Positions 6,169-23,925 of a stretch of 32,005 nt of DNA are shown piece after piece. A program made the translations under genes and the position numbers. This DNA is from Dehalococcoidia bacterium (GTDB lineage: Bacteria > Chloroflexota > Dehalococcoidia > Lucifugimonadales > UBA3495): positions 1 to 32,005 of the forward strand of contig JAJDWF010000005.1 of assembly GCA_022825745.1 (NCBI GenBank), given 5' to 3'. Numbering within the stretch: the first letter of the stretch is position 1; the number at the start of each line of letters is the position of its first letter. The notes below the pieces were generated by a model. That model saw only the letters and a program-made list of their open reading frames with translations. It did no database searches and was not told where the DNA came from.

Positions 6169-6403
6169 CTGGAGGTTCCTCCGAACCGGCTATGGTCTGC
6201 TAAAAGCCGGCGATTTCGCGCATCGCGGGCCGCGGCGCCTGTCGCCACGGACACAAAATAACACCGTCCCGGTTGGTGATGGGAGGTGTTGCCGTAAGGC
6301 TTTCTGGTGTATTGCGGGGGAAAACACCCTGTTGGGCCGCATTCGATACCCGGTCGCCCCATTGCGAAAACGGTGCGGCCACGATTGCGCCGACGTGTTT
6401 AGC
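6169..6403 (-). other. Long 5' leader of korAB
   Basis: This is the sequence between the predicted transcription start and korA. It has no convincing gene. One stem is visible, with GGCCGCA pairing with TGCGGCC around an approximately 30-nt loop, plus weaker GGTGT/ACACC pairings. I do not recognise a riboswitch or T-box. A 67-codon frame beginning at 6362 overlaps the korA start but has no ribosome site and no protein-like composition. Confidence 0.4.
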
Positions 6404-6409
6404 GGACGG

Positions 6410-6439
6410 AATATAGCATTGCAGGGCCGGAATTGTCAA
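6410..6439 (-). promoter_or_regulatory. Sigma70-type promoter of korAB
   Basis: On the minus strand TTGACA (6434-6439) and TATATT (6410-6415) are separated by 18 nt. A TGC directly precedes the -10, giving an extended -10. The predicted start is near 6403. Confidence 0.75.
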
Positions 6440-6755
6440 TTTGGCGCGCTCCTCACGCGTACCCACTTTGTAATTGCGTGATGAAAGGACGGAAAGGTTG
6501 ATTTCCCGCTCATTTCCTCTCATTTGCGCTAATTCAGGTATGGCATCAGGCGGGTTGTGGAGGCTGAATGGGGCCGGGGGAAGGGTTTTGGTGGCGCTAC
6601 CAGTGGTTTTGGCGGGCTGGCGGGCGGGTTTGGGGGAGCGAGGTTCGCGGTGTTTGGAGGTTGGCATGGGACGGCCTCGGGGGTTGGATGGTCAAATGGT
6701 AAGGATGGGCAGTGCGTTAGGGCAAGGGGGAAGTGTCACTACGTGGCGTTCGGTA
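6440..6755. other. Intergenic region with a G-rich tract, no gene seen
   Basis: I see no supported gene here. From about 6551 to 6730 the plus strand is strongly G-rich and C-poor. It includes four close G-runs at 6614-6636 (spacers of 5, 1 and 3 nt), which fit the canonical G-quadruplex pattern. A plus-strand frame through it (6557-6808) gives a Gly/Phe-rich peptide that is explained by the base composition. Confidence 0.5.
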
Positions 6756-7199
6756 TTAGGTGGTTTGATCGGGCGTTTTGCCGGGAATCCTCTCCCGCAG
6801 CCAATTAATGAGCTCAGCCCAACACCACGCAGTCAGTGGGGCCAAGCCGCAAGCTTGCCACATGTGATACTCATCCCTCACGACAACCGCTACCGTCGCG
6901 ACTGCGAAGGGGGCGGCGGCTTGGGTTATTGCCTTTCCGAGTCCGTCAATGCCAGAGGGACGCTTAGTGGTGATCTCGCTCACGCTATACACAGCTTGAT
7001 TCGACGCAATCGCAAGCGCCACTATCACCGCCAAGTCTCCCAACCAAACTCTAAGCGCCATTGCCAGGCTGGGCAAGGCAAATGTGACCGTAATCGTCCC
7101 GATACATCCCCCTGCTATGAGAGCCATCATTACGAACGAAACCGTCGTTGCGGCCAGTCTACCCCCGTTCGTGCCTCTTGCCACCCTTTTGGCAATCAT
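6756..7199 (-). CDS. Small integral membrane protein of unknown function
   Basis: A 147-residue protein with at least three hydrophobic segments: one near the N-terminus after a basic start, one around VWLGDLAVIVALAIAS, and one around APFAVATVAVVV. A Trp/Cys-containing C-terminus and a short basic tail follow. I do not recognise a family. ATG at 7199 lies 5 nt after the stop of the upstream lipoprotein gene, and a GAGG plus GGCGGA sequence overlaps that stop, so the two genes form an operon. An earlier in-frame start at 7226 would overlap the lipoprotein gene. Base composition is lower in G+C than most neighbours, suggesting a possibly acquired pair. Confidence 0.65.
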   Translation of the reverse strand: MIAKRVARGTNGGRLAATTVSFVMMALIAGGCIGTITVTFALPSLAMALRVWLGDLAVIVALAIASNQAVYSVSEITTKRPSGIDGLGKAITQAAAPFAVATVAVVVRDEYHMWQACGLAPLTAWCWAELINWLRERIPGKTPDQTT

Positions 7200-7204
7200 T
7201 CCGC

Positions 7205-8536
7205 CTACCTCAAACCGTCGAAGCAAGCCAGATAGCCCAGCGCGTCATCAAGACCGTCGGTGTCAAACTCGCTCCACAGTCCAGTCTGATTGTCGTCCCC
7301 TTCCGCGTACATCCCGATGTTGAGCTTTGAGTCGGCGTCTTGATTCTGATAAGCGTTGAGCACGACGTTAAATATCTGGCGCACTTGGATGCTGTTGAGC
7401 ACGTAGATGGATGACCCATCATCGGTTATCACGGGGTCAGAATACACTAGGGTGTCCGTCTCGGACCAGTTTTCGATCCCGTAGTCCCAAATCCCGACCG
7501 TGTAGGTATCCACCGATTCCGGGACAATGTACGTGTACGGGCTGATGTACGCGACGCGGAAATCTTCCAGACAGGCCAACGTCAAAACCACTTCGCTGCT
7601 CCATGCGGACGGGTCAGCGTCCATTGTGGCAACTCGCAGGTCTAAATTATCTCGCCCCTGTTCCTTGAATACTTCCGCCAACGCCAATTCCCACTCGGAG
7701 TCACGATACCAAGAACCGGAACCCTTCCACTCAGACGCCGGCGTGGGAGACGGAACGGGGGTCGCAGTCGGCGTAGGGGGCGGTGTAGGCGCAGGAGTTG
7801 CAGTTGGCACGTCGGTCGGCGTAGGTGCGGGGGTTGGCGTGGGTAGAGCGGTTGCAGTTGGCTGCCTCGTGGGTGTAGGGGTGACGGTGGGAGGAACCAT
7901 CGCGGCCAGCGGAGCCTCGTATTGGATTGCCGACACCACTTTTTGAACACCGTCCGAGTAGTGGAGCAACCTGTACTCCTTGATCCTGATTTCCTGCCTG
8001 AAGCCAAGTCGGTAGTCGCCAACGCCGTCCGGCTTCACGGCCATCGCGTAGCATCCGCCTCGCTCCAATTTGGGGAAGTAACCGTTGATTATTATTGCCC
8101 CAGTGGCAATGTTTCGGTCGGCAGGAACTCTTATTTGCCCGCCCTGTCGGTTGAACGCGAATGTCTGCGCATCGACAGATTCGGCATGGCACCCGACCAC
8201 TACACTCGGTCTCGATCGGGGCACGCTGGCACCGACCACGTTTATGTCGCTTGGGGCAATATCGAACGCCGCAGCCAGCGACAGAAGATTGTCCAGTGGA
8301 ATCGCCGTCGGCGTTGGCCTAGGTGTCTGCGTCGGTCTGGTGGTAGGGGTAGGGGAGGCGGTGGGTGGGGTGGAAGTTTCCGTCGAAGCAGGGGATGCAG
8401 TCGACTGTTCCAGTGTGGGTGATGTAGCCTGCTGCTGGGGTTGGGATGTGTCGGCAATCGGCGTCGGGTCTTCACTGCTGCACGCCAACACGGCGGCGGT
8501 CGCAAACACAGCCAAAAGTGTAATCGATAGGCGCAT
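7205..8536 (-). CDS. Thr/Pro-rich surface lipoprotein of unknown function
   Basis: The N-terminus is a lipoprotein signal peptide ending in VLAC, with Cys19 as the lipidated residue. Four parts follow: a Thr/Ser/Pro/Gln-rich linker (about 20-80), a globular domain (about 80-215), a second linker built of PTPT-like repeats (about 215-270), and a C-terminal domain beginning WKGSGSWYRDSEWELALAEVF. The protein is probably anchored outside the membrane, with two domains held on flexible stalks. No catalytic motif is recognised. ATG at 8536 has GGGAGG at 8 nt. Sampled G+C in the 3' part is about 45-55 percent, clearly below the window average. It is followed by a membrane protein gene in the same operon and preceded by a structured leader. 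Confidence 0.8.
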   Translation of the reverse strand: MRLSITLLAVFATAAVLACSSEDPTPIADTSQPQQQATSPTLEQSTASPASTETSTPPTASPTPTTRPTQTPRPTPTAIPLDNLLSLAAAFDIAPSDINVVGASVPRSRPSVVVGCHAESVDAQTFAFNRQGGQIRVPADRNIATGAIIINGYFPKLERGGCYAMAVKPDGVGDYRLGFRQEIRIKEYRLLHYSDGVQKVVSAIQYEAPLAAMVPPTVTPTPTRQPTATALPTPTPAPTPTDVPTATPAPTPPPTPTATPVPSPTPASEWKGSGSWYRDSEWELALAEVFKEQGRDNLDLRVATMDADPSAWSSEVVLTLACLEDFRVAYISPYTYIVPESVDTYTVGIWDYGIENWSETDTLVYSDPVITDDGSSIYVLNSIQVRQIFNVVLNAYQNQDADSKLNIGMYAEGDDNQTGLWSEFDTDGLDDALGYLACFDGLR

Positions 8537-8572
8537 CTGGGGAACCTCCCTCTGCGATCAGGATAGGGCTAC

Positions 8573-8762
8573 CTGTCACAGTCAACCGTTTCCCGTCAGC
8601 GATAAACGCGAGTTGCGCAGAGAGAGGCACAATGCCTCTATCCGTTTGTAACTCGCGTTTTCACGCCCGCTGGGGGCGGAATCAGGGGATAGCCTGATGC
8701 AGTTCCCCCCGCAAGGAGGGATTGGGTATAGCCGACGGCTAACTGCGGTTGAACTGTGACAG
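8573..8762 (-). ncRNA. Candidate structured RNA leader with nested hairpins
   Basis: The outer stem pairs 8573-8588 with 8746-8762, 16 bp with a single bulge. Inside lie a perfect 11-bp stem (8604-8614 with 8650-8660) capped by a 7-bp hairpin (8623-8629 with 8633-8639). Further hairpins are at 8681-8686/8693-8698, around 8704-8720 and at 8729-8733/8737-8741. This multibranch layout is typical of structured RNA. On the minus strand a promoter predicts a start at about 8761, at the first base of the outer stem. The element would then be the 5' leader of the lipoprotein mRNA, ending 36 nt before its ATG. The strand is not certain: a GCAA tetraloop appears on the plus strand. It matches no family I recognise. 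A palindromic mobile repeat is the alternative. Confidence 0.5.
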
Positions 8763-8767
8763 CGGCG

Positions 8768-8796
8768 ATTCTGCCATAGGCATCCCGCAAAAGCAA
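8768..8796 (-). promoter_or_regulatory. Possible promoter of the structured leader and lipoprotein operon
   Basis: On the minus strand TTGCTT (8791-8796) and CAGAAT (8768-8773) are 17 nt apart. The predicted start coincides with the first base of the outer stem. Both hexamers deviate from consensus. Confidence 0.35.
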
Positions 8797-8845
8797 ACGT
8801 AACCTGCCCAATCGCTCACTTACCGCGCGCCCGACGCGGCGGGGT

Positions 8846-8854
8846 TGCTATAAT
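8846..8854 (+). promoter_or_regulatory. Extended -10 promoter of the glycosyltransferase gene, probably leaderless
   Basis: TGC plus a perfect TATAAT (8849-8854) lies 8 nt before ATG 8863. The predicted start is at or within 2 nt of the ATG. No Shine-Dalgarno and no -35 are visible. Confidence 0.6.
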
Positions 8855-8862
8855 CTCTCGCC

Positions 8863-9606
8863 ATGTCGATCAGCCTGGACGTTGTCATTCCCTGCCTGAA
8901 CGAGGAGCGGGCGCTGCCGGTGTGCATCCGCCGGCTGCACGCGTTCATGTCGGAGCGAATGGGCCGCTACGACTGGGGCATCGTGGTGGCGGACAACGGC
9001 TCCACTGACGGGACGCTGGACGCGGCGGAAGCACTGTCGCAGGAGTTCCCGCAGGTTCGCTACATCCGGCTGGACCAGCGCGGTCGGGGGCGCGCCCTGC
9101 GCCGGGCCTGGACCGAGAGCCGCGCCGACGTCGTGGCCTACATGGACGTTGACCTGTCCACCGACCTGGACAGCCTGCCGCCGATGATCGCGGCCATCGC
9201 GGAGGATGGCTACGACGTGGCGACGGGCTCCCGGCTGCTGCCCGACTCACAGGTGGTGGGACGCACTCTGAAGAGGGAGATCACGTCCCGGGGGTACAGC
9301 CTGCTGTTCCGCGCGATGTTCTTCACCACGTTCCGCGACGCGCAGTGCGGGTTCAAGGCGGCCAGCCGGCGGGCGGCGGACGACCTGGCGCCGCTGGTGG
9401 AGGACAACGGGTGGTTCTTCGACTCGGAGCTGCTGATCCTGGCGCAGAAGTGCGGCTACCGCATCAGGGAGTTGCCGGTGCACTGGGAGGACGATCCCGA
9501 CACGCGGGTGCGCATCCTGCGGACGGCGTGGGAGGACGTGAAGGGGCTGCTGCGGCTGAAGTTCGGCGGCGTGGCCCGGGCGCGGCGACAACTCCGGGCC
9601 AGATAA
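8863..9606 (+). CDS. Family 2 glycosyltransferase, dolichol-phosphate-mannose-synthase-like
   Basis: GT-A fold enzyme transferring sugar from a nucleotide sugar, typically to a polyprenyl phosphate. Visible are VVIPCLNEE (7-15), ADNGSTDGT (43-51), the metal-binding acidic motif DVDLSTD (95-101), GSRLLPDS, DAQCGFKA (159-166) and the C-terminal ELPVHWEDD (203-211). This pattern matches the DPM1-like branch. There are no C-terminal membrane helices, so the enzyme is soluble or peripheral. Length is 247 residues. No acceptor or partner gene adjoins it, so the sugar and product are unknown. The mRNA is likely leaderless, with a TATAAT box 8 nt before the ATG. Confidence 0.88.
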   Translation: MSISLDVVIPCLNEERALPVCIRRLHAFMSERMGRYDWGIVVADNGSTDGTLDAAEALSQEFPQVRYIRLDQRGRGRALRRAWTESRADVVAYMDVDLSTDLDSLPPMIAAIAEDGYDVATGSRLLPDSQVVGRTLKREITSRGYSLLFRAMFFTTFRDAQCGFKAASRRAADDLAPLVEDNGWFFDSELLILAQKCGYRIRELPVHWEDDPDTRVRILRTAWEDVKGLLRLKFGGVARARRQLRAR

Positions 9607-10858: not shown

Positions 10859-10932
10859 TGGCTGGGGATACAGGATTCGAACCTGTGATACCTGATCCAG
10901 AGTCAGGCGTCTTACCACTAGACTAATCCCCA
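10859..10932 (-). tRNA. tRNA-Gln (anticodon CUG)
   Basis: Read on the minus strand, the acceptor stem pairs TGGGGAT with ATCCCCA, followed by discriminator G and an encoded CCA. The anticodon stem-loop is CCTGA-CTCTGGA-TCAGG with anticodon CTG. The T arm is ACAGG-TTCGAAT-CCTGT. All arms are intact, and the weak first pair (T1-A72) with G73 matches glutamine tRNAs. Confidence 0.95.
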
Positions 10933-18566: not shown

Positions 18567-19850
18567 ATGGCCAACATGGAACTGGTCCAGATAGTGAAAC
18601 GAGGACGCGATGCGGTGGCGGCGTGGCGCGAGGAGAACCCCAACACGCCCATGGACCTGAACGAGTGCTACATGAGCCACTCGCGCATCCCCATGGTGAA
18701 CCTGCGCGGCGCGGACCTGCGCAACGGCGACTTCATGGGCGCGATGGTGCGCCGCGCCGACCTTTCCAACAGCTACATGAACAACGTCCACTTTTACCGG
18801 GCGGACCTCCGGGAAGCCGACATGAGCCGTGCCATCGCGCCGGGCGCGAACCTGCGGGGCGCGGACCTCCGCAACGCCAACCTGGCCGGCATCAACCTGG
18901 ACGGCGCCACTCTTTCGGAAGCGAATCTTTCCGGCGCGGACCTGACCAACGCCAACCTGGACCGCAGCAATCTGGACCGGGTCAACTTCACCGGGGCCAA
19001 CCTTACGGGCGCCAGCTTCAACGGAGCGAACCTGTCCCGGACGAATCTGTCGGAAGCCACGCTGAGCGCGGCCGACTTCTACGAGGCGGTGCTGAACGAC
19101 GTGGTCACCGAGGACGCCGATTTCAACAACTGCATCATCGGCTACACGGTTTTCCAGAACTGCGCCATGGACGCCGCGCTGGGACTGGACAGCGTTCGCC
19201 ATGACGCGCCCAGCACCATCGGGCTGGACACGCTGCTGCGCTCCCGGGGCGCGCTGCCGCAATCCTTTATCCTGGGCTCCGGCATCCCCGTAGCTGTGGC
19301 AGGCATCCAGGACTCGGTGGCGGACGCTCCGGTAACCACGCTGGAGGTACATATCTCCTGCGCCGACGGCGACATCGAGTTCGCGCGACAACTGGAAGAC
19401 AACCTGCGGGCCCGAGGGGTGCGCACCTGGGTGTTCGCCGAAGGATTCCGGGGCAATCCGCTGGTGGACCGGCGCGCCTCCTCCGGCGAAGAAGAGATCG
19501 AGCGGTGGGTGCGGCACTATGATCGCATTATCGTGGTTTGCACCGCCGCCGGCCTGGACAGCGAAACCGTGCGCAACGACATTACGGCTGCCCAGGAAGC
19601 GGAAAACACCGGCGACCGCTGGACCATGTTCCTGGTGGACGCCGACGGTGTCATGGGTGCCGGCCGGAACCGCGCCGCCCGCCTCCTGAAGGAAGACCAT
19701 CGCGTGTTTGACCTCACCGGCCAGGCGGCGGGATCGGACGAATACCAGGCGGCCCTGGGCGACCTGATCGAAAACCTGCGGGAAGAGCAGCCGGCCAGCG
19801 CCGCCAAGCCGCCGCGCCAGGCCGTTGACCCCAGGACGCTGCAACTGTAG
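18567..19850 (+). CDS. Pentapeptide-repeat protein with C-terminal TIR-like domain
   Basis: Residues 40-185 consist of A(D/N)LxxAxL pentapeptide repeats (RGADLRNGDFMGAMVRRADL and on), which fold into a right-handed beta-helix. A linker LGLDSVRHDAPSTIGLDTL is followed by a TIR-like domain from about residue 255 (VHISCADGDIEFARQLEDNLRARGVRTW). This order occurs in cyanobacterial and other bacterial proteins. The TIR is degenerate. The usual FISYSxxD start reads VHISCADGD, and the S-x-W-x-x-x-E segment that carries the NADase glutamate reads SETVRNDIT (332-340), with Asp. ATG 18567 is chosen over 18525 because GGAG lies 8 nt before it. It is monocistronic, with its own terminator. Confidence 0.82.
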   Translation: MANMELVQIVKRGRDAVAAWREENPNTPMDLNECYMSHSRIPMVNLRGADLRNGDFMGAMVRRADLSNSYMNNVHFYRADLREADMSRAIAPGANLRGADLRNANLAGINLDGATLSEANLSGADLTNANLDRSNLDRVNFTGANLTGASFNGANLSRTNLSEATLSAADFYEAVLNDVVTEDADFNNCIIGYTVFQNCAMDAALGLDSVRHDAPSTIGLDTLLRSRGALPQSFILGSGIPVAVAGIQDSVADAPVTTLEVHISCADGDIEFARQLEDNLRARGVRTWVFAEGFRGNPLVDRRASSGEEEIERWVRHYDRIIVVCTAAGLDSETVRNDITAAQEAENTGDRWTMFLVDADGVMGAGRNRAARLLKEDHRVFDLTGQAAGSDEYQAALGDLIENLREEQPASAAKPPRQAVDPRTLQL

Positions 19851-19987: not shown

Positions 19988-21262
19988 TTAGATGTAGTCT
20001 TCCTCCTCGTACATCATGTCGACGTTGTCGGTGCTCTGGCCGAGGCCGCGAGTCACGTCGGTGCGGAAGGCTTCCAGCATTTCGTCGGTGATCTCGTTGC
20101 CGTTGGCGCGCGCAGCGTCCTTCAACTGGTCAAAGGCCCACTCGGAAGTGTCGCCGTGAGGCATGTCGAAGAAGCCGGGCTCGAAGACGGGGAGTTCGCC
20201 GGGGCCGAAGTAGCCCTTGCCCTCGATGTTGTAACCTTCGAGGTCGTGGGTGCCCTTGCCGAGGACCTGACCGGTAGCAGCGTAGTGCTCCATGGTGGCC
20301 TTCATGCCGTACTTCTGGATCGGGCAAACCTTCATGCAGACGCCGCAGCCCAGGTAGCGGGCCATGACGGGGCGGCAGCGCTTGAAGTAGAGCTTGTTCT
20401 TCTCAATTCCGCGCCACCAGATCTTGTCGCGCATCAGGGCGCGGCCCGGGCAGCGGTTCACGCAGACCTGGCACACCTGGCAGAAGGCATGGATGCCGTA
20501 GTCCACCGGCTGGTCGTGGGTGACGTTGGCGTCGGTGGTGATCATCATGATGCGGCAGCGGGAGCCGACGTGCGGGGTCAACAGGTAGCCGCAAGCGCCA
20601 AGCTGGCCGAGGCCGGCGGCGACGAACATCGGGATGTAGGGGCCGGTGTTGTCGTTGGGGCTGTGCACCTGGGCACGATAGCCGAGGCTGCGCACGAAGT
20701 TGCCCAGTTCCAGACCCGCGGCGCCTTCGGTGCGGTAGGTGCTGGAGTGGACGATCTCGGCGTCGATGCTGGGGATGGTCTGGGTGGGCTCGAAGTCCTG
20801 CTCGTAGGCCAGGCAGATGACGCTCGGGAAGCGGACCCAGTCCTTCTTGCTCTGGTACACGTAGCGGATGTCAAAGGCGGTGATGCCGACTTCGACGAAA
20901 CCGAGCTCGCGAGCCTTCTGCTTGATGGCCTCGGTGACGTCCTCACCGGTGGCTTCATTCGTGGGCTCCAGGTCGCCGGTCAGACGGGCGGCCATGACGA
21001 GGTTGCGGTTCAGCTTGTCGTGTTCCTTGCGGATCTCGCGCATCTCGGCGTGCTGGTCGCGCAGGGTGTTGGCCCAGTCGCGGGAAGCGCGCTCGGTGAT
21101 GTTCATGGTCTCGACCGGATACTCGCGGGAGTACCAGTCAACTTCACGCTGGTTCATGGGGATGCCGGGAGTAGTCTCGAGCTCCTCCGGCACCGGGATG
21201 GTTACAGGCGCGTCGCCCAGATACTTGCCGGGACGTCGTACCTCATGACCGATGGTTAGCAT
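19988..21262 (-). CDS. Cytosolic reductive-dehalogenase-like corrinoid Fe-S protein (copy 1)
   Basis: A 424-residue protein with the core of reductive dehalogenases. Its elements are ELGNFVRSLGYRAQ, FVAAGLGQLGACGYLLTPHVG and ITTDANVTHDQPVDYG, which together form the corrinoid-binding NADH-oxidase-like fold. A ferredoxin part follows, with cluster 1 ligands C261, C264, C267, C271 (CQVCQVCVNRCPG) and cluster 2 ligands C296, C306, C309, C313. No Tat signal, signal peptide or membrane helix is seen, and no rdhB gene adjoins. It is probably cytosolic, as in catabolic rather than respiratory dehalogenases. Whether it removes halogen is unproven. ATG 21262 has AGGAGGAGGAT directly upstream. A paralog lies at 22648-23925. 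Confidence 0.82.
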   Translation of the reverse strand: MLTIGHEVRRPGKYLGDAPVTIPVPEELETTPGIPMNQREVDWYSREYPVETMNITERASRDWANTLRDQHAEMREIRKEHDKLNRNLVMAARLTGDLEPTNEATGEDVTEAIKQKARELGFVEVGITAFDIRYVYQSKKDWVRFPSVICLAYEQDFEPTQTIPSIDAEIVHSSTYRTEGAAGLELGNFVRSLGYRAQVHSPNDNTGPYIPMFVAAGLGQLGACGYLLTPHVGSRCRIMMITTDANVTHDQPVDYGIHAFCQVCQVCVNRCPGRALMRDKIWWRGIEKNKLYFKRCRPVMARYLGCGVCMKVCPIQKYGMKATMEHYAATGQVLGKGTHDLEGYNIEGKGYFGPGELPVFEPGFFDMPHGDTSEWAFDQLKDAARANGNEITDEMLEAFRTDVTRGLGQSTDNVDMMYEEEDYI

Positions 21263-22647: not shown

Positions 22648-23925
22648 CTAGATGTAGTCCTGGTCCTCGGCCATCATCTGCAGGACGTCGCCGGACTGCA
22701 GCTGAATGGCGCGCTGGATCTGAACCTTGAGGTCTTCCAGCATCTCTTCGGGGATCTCGCCGTCGTTGTCCTTGGCGGCTTCCTTCATCGACTCGAAGGC
22801 CCACTCGTCGGAGTTGCCGTGGGGCATGTCGAAGAAGTCGCGCTCGAAGACGGGGAGTTCGCCGGGGCCGAAGTAGCCCTTGCCTTCCAGGTTGTAACCT
22901 TCGAGGTCGTGGGTGCCCTTGCCGAGGACCTGACCGGTGGCGGCATAGTGCTCCATGACGTTCTTGAGGCCATACTTCTGGATCGGGCAGACCTTCATGC
23001 AGACGCCGCAGCCGAGATAGCGGGCCATGACGGGGCGACAGCGCTTGAAGTAGAGCTTGTTCTTCTCGATTCCGCGCCACCAGATCTTGTCGCGCATCAG
23101 GGCGCGGCCGGGGCAGCGGTTCACGCAGACCTGGCAAACCTGGCAGAAGGCGTGGATGCCGTAGTCCACCGGCTCGTCATTGGTGACGTTGGCGTCGGTG
23201 GTGATCATCATCAGCCGCATGCGGTTGCCGGTGTGCGGGGACAGCAGGTAGCCGCAGGCGCCCAGGGAGCCGAGGCCAGCCGCCACGAACATGGGGATCA
23301 CGGGGCCGGTGGCGTCGCTGGAGTGGACGACGTGGGCCTTGTAACCCAGGGAGCGGATGAAGTTGCCCAGTTCCAGGCCGGCCGCTGCCTGCGTCCGGTA
23401 GGTGCTGGAGTGGACGATCTCAGCGTCAACGCTGGGGATGGTCTGGGTGGGCTCGAAGTCCTGTTCGTAGGCCAGGCAGATGGCCTTGGGCAGAACGGTG
23501 AAGCCGCGCTTGCTCTTGTAGTCGTACCGGGGGTCGTAGTTGGTGATTCCAACTTCCAGGTAACCCAACTGGCGAGCCTTGTCCTTGATGAGCTGGGAGA
23601 TGTCCTCGCCGGTGGGTTCGGCGGTGGGCTCCATCTCAGCGGTGGAACGGGCGGCCATGATCAGGTTGCTGTTGAGCTTGTCGTGCTCCTTGCGGATCTC
23701 ACGCATCTCGGCGTGGAGGTCGCGCAGGGTGTTCGACCAGTCCCGGGACGCGCGCTCGGTGATGTTCATGGTTTCCAGCGGATACTCGCGGGCGTACCAG
23801 TCAACTTCACGGTCGGTCTTCGGAATACCGGGAACGGTTTCCAGCTCTTCCGGAACCGGAATCGTGATATCGGCGTCCCCCCAGTGCCTTCCGGGACGGA
23901 CTACCTCGTGCCCAATGGTAAGCAT
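22648..23925 (-). CDS. Cytosolic reductive-dehalogenase-like corrinoid Fe-S protein (copy 2)
   Basis: A 425-residue paralog of the protein at 19988-21262. By eye about three quarters of residues are identical, and the stretch from cluster 1 to residue 360 is nearly invariant. It has the same domain order, the same eight cluster cysteines (C261-C271 and C296-C313), and no Tat signal or membrane anchor. Differences concentrate at residues 96-146, 198-209 and in the C-terminal tail after residue 370. These may tune substrate choice. ATG 23925 has GAGGAGG about 7 nt upstream. It has its own promoter and terminator, so it is monocistronic. A membrane anchor gene (rdhB) is not present. Confidence 0.82.
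   Translation of the reverse strand: MLTIGHEVVRPGRHWGDADITIPVPEELETVPGIPKTDREVDWYAREYPLETMNITERASRDWSNTLRDLHAEMREIRKEHDKLNSNLIMAARSTAEMEPTAEPTGEDISQLIKDKARQLGYLEVGITNYDPRYDYKSKRGFTVLPKAICLAYEQDFEPTQTIPSVDAEIVHSSTYRTQAAAGLELGNFIRSLGYKAHVVHSSDATGPVIPMFVAAGLGSLGACGYLLSPHTGNRMRLMMITTDANVTNDEPVDYGIHAFCQVCQVCVNRCPGRALMRDKIWWRGIEKNKLYFKRCRPVMARYLGCGVCMKVCPIQKYGLKNVMEHYAATGQVLGKGTHDLEGYNLEGKGYFGPGELPVFERDFFDMPHGNSDEWAFESMKEAAKDNDGEIPEEMLEDLKVQIQRAIQLQSGDVLQMMAEDQDYI

Follow-up and report, generated by a model that had tools for sequence, protein, structure and literature searches.

A multi-copy family of structured leader RNAs, probably hiding the ribosome-binding site, upstream of genes for exported proteins in Chloroflexota

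Results and discussion

A structured leader upstream of a predicted lipoprotein gene

A minus-strand hairpin element in a 32,005-nucleotide stretch of a Dehalococcoidia genome (contig JAJDWF010000005.1, the window) probably forms the 5' leader of a lipoprotein mRNA and belongs to a new family of cis-regulatory RNAs with multiple copies per genome. It likely acts in cis as a translational switch, with a double pseudoknot hiding the ribosome-binding site; this function has not been shown, and expression data are lacking. The members of the family share the order P1, variable hairpins, P2, A, P3, B, P2', spacer, P1', A', B' and start codon from 5' to 3'. The parts of the window's copy, all on the minus strand, are:

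8791-8796, -35-like hexamer TTGCTT, assigned by sequence and by a place matching TTGA[CT] in relatives
8768-8773, -10-like hexamer CAGAAT, 17 nt from the -35 hexamer, predicted transcription start at about 8762
8746-8762, P1 5' arm CTGTCACAGTTCAACCG, partner 8573-8588 (swap test, column counts)
8664-8740, variable region with four small hairpins, differing in sequence among members
8650-8660, P2 5' arm AAACGCGAGTT, partner 8604-8614 (swap test)
8634-8643, A segment GGATAGAGGC, 5' half of the apical loop, partner A' at 8561-8569 (swap test)
8623-8639, P3, 7-bp apical hairpin AGAGGCA-TTG-TGCCTCT (weaker swap signal, z -3.7)
8616-8630, B segment GTGCCTCTCTCTGCG, anti-Shine-Dalgarno-like, 3' half of the apical loop, partner B' at 8542-8556
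8604-8614, P2 3' arm AACTCGCGTTT (swap test)
8573-8588, P1 3' arm CGGTTGACTGTGACAG (swap test, column counts, repeat in other genera and families)
8561-8569, A' segment GCCCTATCC, outside P1, pairing with A
8542-8556, B' segment CGCAGAGGGAGGTTC, pairing with B, with the Shine-Dalgarno sequence GGGAGG inside (8545-8550)
7205-8536, presumed regulated gene, a 443-aa predicted lipoprotein with lipobox VLAC and Pro/Thr-rich repeats, without a Pfam match

The minus strand of 8573-8762 folded with -108.6 kcal/mol compared to -73.4 +/- 4.6 kcal/mol for shuffled sequences (z = -7.7), and none of 200 shuffles was as stable. Since the plus strand reached nearly the same stability in this test (z = -7.4), folding alone cannot decide the strand. 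The initial annotation had described nested hairpins with a 16-bp outer stem, an inner stem of 11 plus 7 bp, at least three additional hairpins and an end 36 nt before the ATG of the lipoprotein gene. All of these structures were confirmed: the outer stem P1 (8573-8588/8746-8762) has 16 bp and one bulged base, the two-stage stem consists of 11 bp (8604-8614/8650-8660) and 7 bp (8623-8629/8633-8639), and four further hairpins were located at 8664-8679, 8681-8698, 8704-8722 and 8730-8740. The distance of 36 nt to the ATG held as well, but as a boundary it was 36 nt short: the element extends into these nucleotides, which contain the pairing partners of the apical loop, whose helices with it hide the ribosome-binding site. 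The annotation had recognized no core of known riboswitches, 6S, SRP or RNase P RNA; an Rfam scan of the window likewise gave no match over the element at either threshold, including the relaxed one.

The hairpin at 8704-8722 in the variable region of the window's copy holds CCTCCTTGCGG, which is exactly the B segment of the main subfamily. The copy's own B differs from it; a remnant or a decoy is possible.

The initial annotation had predicted that transcription starts with the first nucleotide of the outer stem, and this prediction fits the whole family. The window's promoter, TTGCTT-17 nt-CAGAAT, is weak and remained under the threshold of the promoter scanner, yet it is in register. Relatives have a much better TTGACA-17-TAnnnT at equal distance from P1. 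Within the -35 window before P1, TTGA[CT] was present in 45 of 67 members, compared to 3.6 % of random positions, and 51 of 67 members had YAnnnT at 3-9 nt upstream of P1, compared to 13.7 % of random positions. Computationally, the -35 and -10 positions are thus fixed relative to P1 in the family, and as they are conserved in relatives, the prediction that transcription begins with the first base of P1 has good support, albeit without measurement.

Discovery and size of the family

Plain blastn with the element detected no relative in the own genome, 98 relatives, plasmids or phages, and in 400 genomes of the phylum only chance matches of 19-27 nt. The family search was performed with covariance models in three steps, built from the single copy, then from six members and then from the 3' part. 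The single-copy model retrieved five full-length relatives among congeners, each before a start codon. The core common to these five runs beyond the element as first delimited and includes CCCTATCCTGATCGCAGAGGGAGGTTCCC just 5' of the window's ATG, with matching changes in the relatives. With the six-member model about 40 members were obtained in 13 of 14 congeners, and the 3'-part model (E <= 0.01) yielded 136 matches in 45 of 250 genomes of the order. The own genome has eight copies, which is also the maximum per genome in the order. Elsewhere in the phylum, the 3'-part model added five genomes with seven matches, each immediately upstream of a start codon; most of the genes concerned encode secreted or membrane proteins. 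A weak model match (L106) was discarded because it had no A/B core. One structured intergenic region without a BLAST relative can thus reveal a whole family by means of a structure model.

Rfam 15 gave no meaningful match over the element in the window and 20 further member loci at relaxed thresholds, and no earlier description was found in the literature searched, an open-access subset that is no proof of absence. The family and its architecture therefore appear new; the kind of RNA, a structured leader hiding a ribosome-binding site, is already known. A sizeable RNA family that covaries strongly and has a clear expression platform hence stands outside Rfam 15 and this literature. Leader copies also cluster in places (L193, L194, L195, L196), and some of them form divergent pairs separated by a few hundred bases.

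Covariation supports P1, P2 and two pairings with the apical loop

Because the variable middle region is placed wrongly in MAFFT and model alignments, alignment-free partner-swap tests were used, in which the own strands of each member are compared with strands exchanged between members. Thirty-six non-redundant members, near-duplicates having been removed, were tested with 5000 permutations. P1 had a mean of -18.1 kcal/mol, in contrast to -9.0 kcal/mol for swapped strands (z -17), P2 -19.4 versus -11.6 kcal/mol, A/A' -15.6 versus -11.05 kcal/mol (z -10.3) and B/B' -26.7 versus -21.2 kcal/mol (z -11.6); in none of the four did any of the 5000 permutations reach the observed mean. Covariation of P3 was weak (z -3.7), and a GGGAA/UUCCC pairing of the P2-P1 spacer with the nucleotides that follow the Shine-Dalgarno sequence received only weak support in the swap test. 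The test makes no correction for relatedness; nevertheless, the effect is not confined to one family: the 25 matches that belong to other genera and families gave z -11.4 for P1, -5.7 for A/A' and -9.6 for B/B', although the search model behind these matches did not include P1 or A/A'. Column counts agreed. For B/B', 97.1 % of the cells were paired and six of seven pairs had changed on both sides (0 of 500 shuffles), and the column covariation of P1 and P3 was 0.342 versus 0.105 (0 of 500 shuffles). The absence of compensatory changes in homologs would have refuted the initial annotation; such changes are abundant.

The strand, which had been left open, is now settled as minus. G-U pairs account for 99 of 568 pairs in B/B', and the same segments on the antisense strand pair with only -19.3 kcal/mol, compared to -26.7 kcal/mol in the sense orientation. 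As the G-U pairs sit on the sense RNA and antisense pairing is weaker, selection acts on the RNA of the gene's strand. The helices, their covariation and the strand are in this way shown by computation. A and B lie inside P1/P2 and A' and B' outside, so both pairings are pseudoknots; that the pseudoknot helices exist simultaneously is inferred. In some members from other classes of the phylum (L208, L209), A' abuts B' and A/A' comprises 10-11 bp.

Genes downstream of the leaders

The B' segment carries the Shine-Dalgarno sequence, and the start codon usually follows within a few bases; this overlap was established on the computational level, as was the association with exported proteins. Forty-four leader ORFs of at least 80 aa, beginning at the expected start codon, were compared with 88 background genes from the window and the long loci. 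An N-terminal hydrophobic segment or a lipobox was present in 35 of the 44 leader ORFs and in 15 of the 88 background genes (P = 3e-12), a lipobox in 21 and 4, respectively (P = 8e-9). These export and membrane signals were scored by simple hydropathy and a lipobox rule, not by a trained predictor. The domains of the downstream proteins are unrelated, e.g., trypsin, subtilase, FN3, TPR and RCC1. In the own genome, five of the eight copies precede a lipoprotein or a membrane protein, and relatives of the window's lipoprotein are located behind two other copies, L141 (own genome, second gene) and L137 (a congener).

A conservative count left 34 of 72 matches without a credible 80-aa ORF where the start codon is expected. 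In some of them the ORF is displaced or begins with a noncanonical codon, or a gene for an exported protein lies further downstream; others seem degenerate or have a terminator-like hairpin at their end. In L143, L144, L140 and L150, a tiny ORF is followed by a terminator-like hairpin.

Two observations concern individual loci. After the leaders of L177 and L198 a lipoprotein frame is present, but ACG or ATC stands at the expected start codon. L120, L129, L133 and L138 have no leader ORF; in these four members another conserved module follows, beginning with a hairpin like GGTCGCCGG...CCGGCGACC and continuing with CACCC...GGGGGTG adjoining a new start codon (MSMLP... in some); this module resembles a second ribosome-binding-site hairpin.

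Proposed mechanism

We propose that transcription would start at the first base of P1 and that the RNA would fold into P1, the variable hairpins and P2, capped by the apical loop A-P3-B. Once transcribed, A' and B' may pair with the two halves of the loop, forming a double pseudoknot with P1/P2. The Shine-Dalgarno sequence would then be buried in the B/B' helix of about 14 bp and translation would be blocked. If P3 were kept closed, or B/B' were opened otherwise, the ribosome-binding site would become free. P3 shares bases with A and B and hence competes with the full pseudoknot. Control that is off by default is inferred, as is a signal, be it a small molecule, an ion, a protein or another factor, that shifts the balance.

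A cis-acting leader is expected between promoter and gene start, which is met on sequence evidence, though not by every copy, and to have a conserved RNA structure with compensatory changes, which is met. The criterion of a riboswitch expression platform is fulfilled by B/B' covering the Shine-Dalgarno sequence and by the bases common to P3, A and B; its function was not shown. The proposal of a riboswitch-like leader in the initial annotation is thus supported, but a riboswitch in the strict sense is not established, ligand binding being untested. The family represents a candidate regulon of exported proteins in largely uncultured bacteria of unknown regulation. It predicts which genes answer one common signal, and the RNA is directly testable.

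Comparison with known RNA systems

SAM-II, SAM/SAH, SAM-V and preQ1 riboswitches are translational riboswitches with a pseudoknot that sequesters the Shine-Dalgarno sequence. Like the new family, they are located in 5' leaders, and one strand of the pseudoknot is able to incorporate the ribosome-binding site (PMC7367207, PMC6061858, PMC11625349). In contrast, the new family is much larger, matches no Rfam model and has an unknown ligand; A/A' and B/B' link one apical loop to a segment proximal to the start codon, and B/B' has about 14 bp. Riboswitches for c-di-GMP (GEMM, c-di-GMP-II) occur many times per genome before unrelated genes, including those of secreted and surface proteins. They resemble the new family in copy number and in the unrelated genes behind them; the GEMM and c-di-GMP-II models had no match over the element in the 21 loci tested. 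Among the structured RNA candidates of Chloroflexota from comparative surveys, to which the new family is similar in this respect, is the Chloroflexi-1 motif, given for Chloroflexus aggregans only (PMC2864571). Its family RF01698 had no match in the window or the further member loci. T-box leaders with translational control are long 5' leaders able to hide the Shine-Dalgarno sequence, a likeness to the new family, which is however located before genes of exported proteins and not before aminoacyl-tRNA or amino-acid genes. The T-box model had no match in the window or 20 further member loci.

Alternative explanations

A bolder reading sees in the family a new riboswitch class, a sensor of a metabolite, a second messenger or the envelope state. 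We find almost as much reason to accept this as to doubt it. If true, Dehalococcoidia-like and other Chloroflexota bacteria would use such a riboswitch to govern how a large set of exported proteins is translated, by means of a double pseudoknot that joins one apical loop to the ribosome-binding site. In a variant of the translational leader no small ligand is needed: the leader would be opened by a protein or by a factor related to the ribosome or SRP, or it would help to bring mRNAs of exported proteins to the membrane. Export or membrane location is the sole property common to the associated genes, whose domains are unrelated; however, no candidate regulator was identified, and we consider this variant possible, with the balance against it. 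The very stable B/B' helix, at the mean given above, argues against an RNA thermometer with a weak, melting helix, the growth temperatures being unknown.

The initial annotation had offered a stand-alone RNA as alternative. A family of trans-acting small RNAs, with a 3' end that merely resembles a ribosome-binding site, could account for the copies with a tiny ORF and a terminator-like hairpin or without an ORF. In most copies, however, B' is a Shine-Dalgarno sequence with a start codon at the expected spacing, the associated ORFs are strongly enriched in exported proteins, and several ORF-less copies have a gene for an exported protein slightly further on. This explanation is unlikely, also for the window's copy.

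A mobile palindromic element (MITE) with terminal inverted repeats is very unlikely. In its favor are the outer inverted repeat and the position of the region within a 2.7-kb insertion relative to congeners. Against it, no second copy with the same ends exists in the genome, 98 relatives or a collection of 84,980 species, except for one unrelated-looking match; the ends of family members differ by compensatory changes; the position between promoter and start codon is fixed, and no target-site duplication was seen. As a pattern, the outer repeat occurred only in the window's copy among 50 family genomes. The paired ends gave one chance match in the 84,980-species contig collection, on a Bacteroidetes contig without further resemblance, and the outer-repeat pattern gave 36 chance matches in viral contigs. 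Many dispersed copies with identical ends, which would have refuted the initial annotation, were thus not found, the exact ends being present at this locus only. The mobile-palindrome reading was rejected on the covariation of the ends and the lack of copies with the same ends. A DNA hairpin recombination site (attC-like) or another DNA-level palindrome, suggested by nested inverted repeats and by clustering of some copies in divergent pairs, is all but excluded and was rejected on repeat orientation and strand asymmetry: G-U pairs favor one strand only, and promoter and Shine-Dalgarno sequence are coupled to the element.

Genomic neighborhood

The lipoprotein gene and its element are absent before the orthologous glycosyltransferase gene in 13 congeners. 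Between the PFOR and glycosyltransferase genes, about 2.7 kb (6169-8862) are lacking in congeners; this part contains the lipoprotein gene with its leader and a stretch without a clear gene. Several congeners have other insertions at the same site. Upstream of the glycosyltransferase gene (8863-9606), at a distance of about 7 nt from the ATG, lies a TATAAT box (8849-8863) that is conserved in congeners (L011-L023), where everything further upstream has changed. The box is seen as a conserved promoter, and the glycosyltransferase mRNA is probably leaderless. In L012:186-374 (G009), a second copy of the first 63 glycosyltransferase codons lies about 1 kb before the intact gene. Upstream of the glycosyltransferase gene in L011 (G006), a palindrome CCGTCATTCCCGCG...CGCCGGAATGACGG resembles a common bacterial dispersed repeat.

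Elsewhere, the window encodes two luciferase-like monooxygenases, which by inference would suit a SAR202-like bacterium, and has a tRNA gene (10862-10932, minus strand). A coding repeat with a 15-nt period and the pattern A-[DN]-L-x-x (18691-19065) indicates a pentapeptide-repeat-like protein. The neighboring stretches 20066-21145 and 22729-23808 are paralogous, with 82-85 % DNA identity over two 300-nt pieces at a spacing of 2663 nt.
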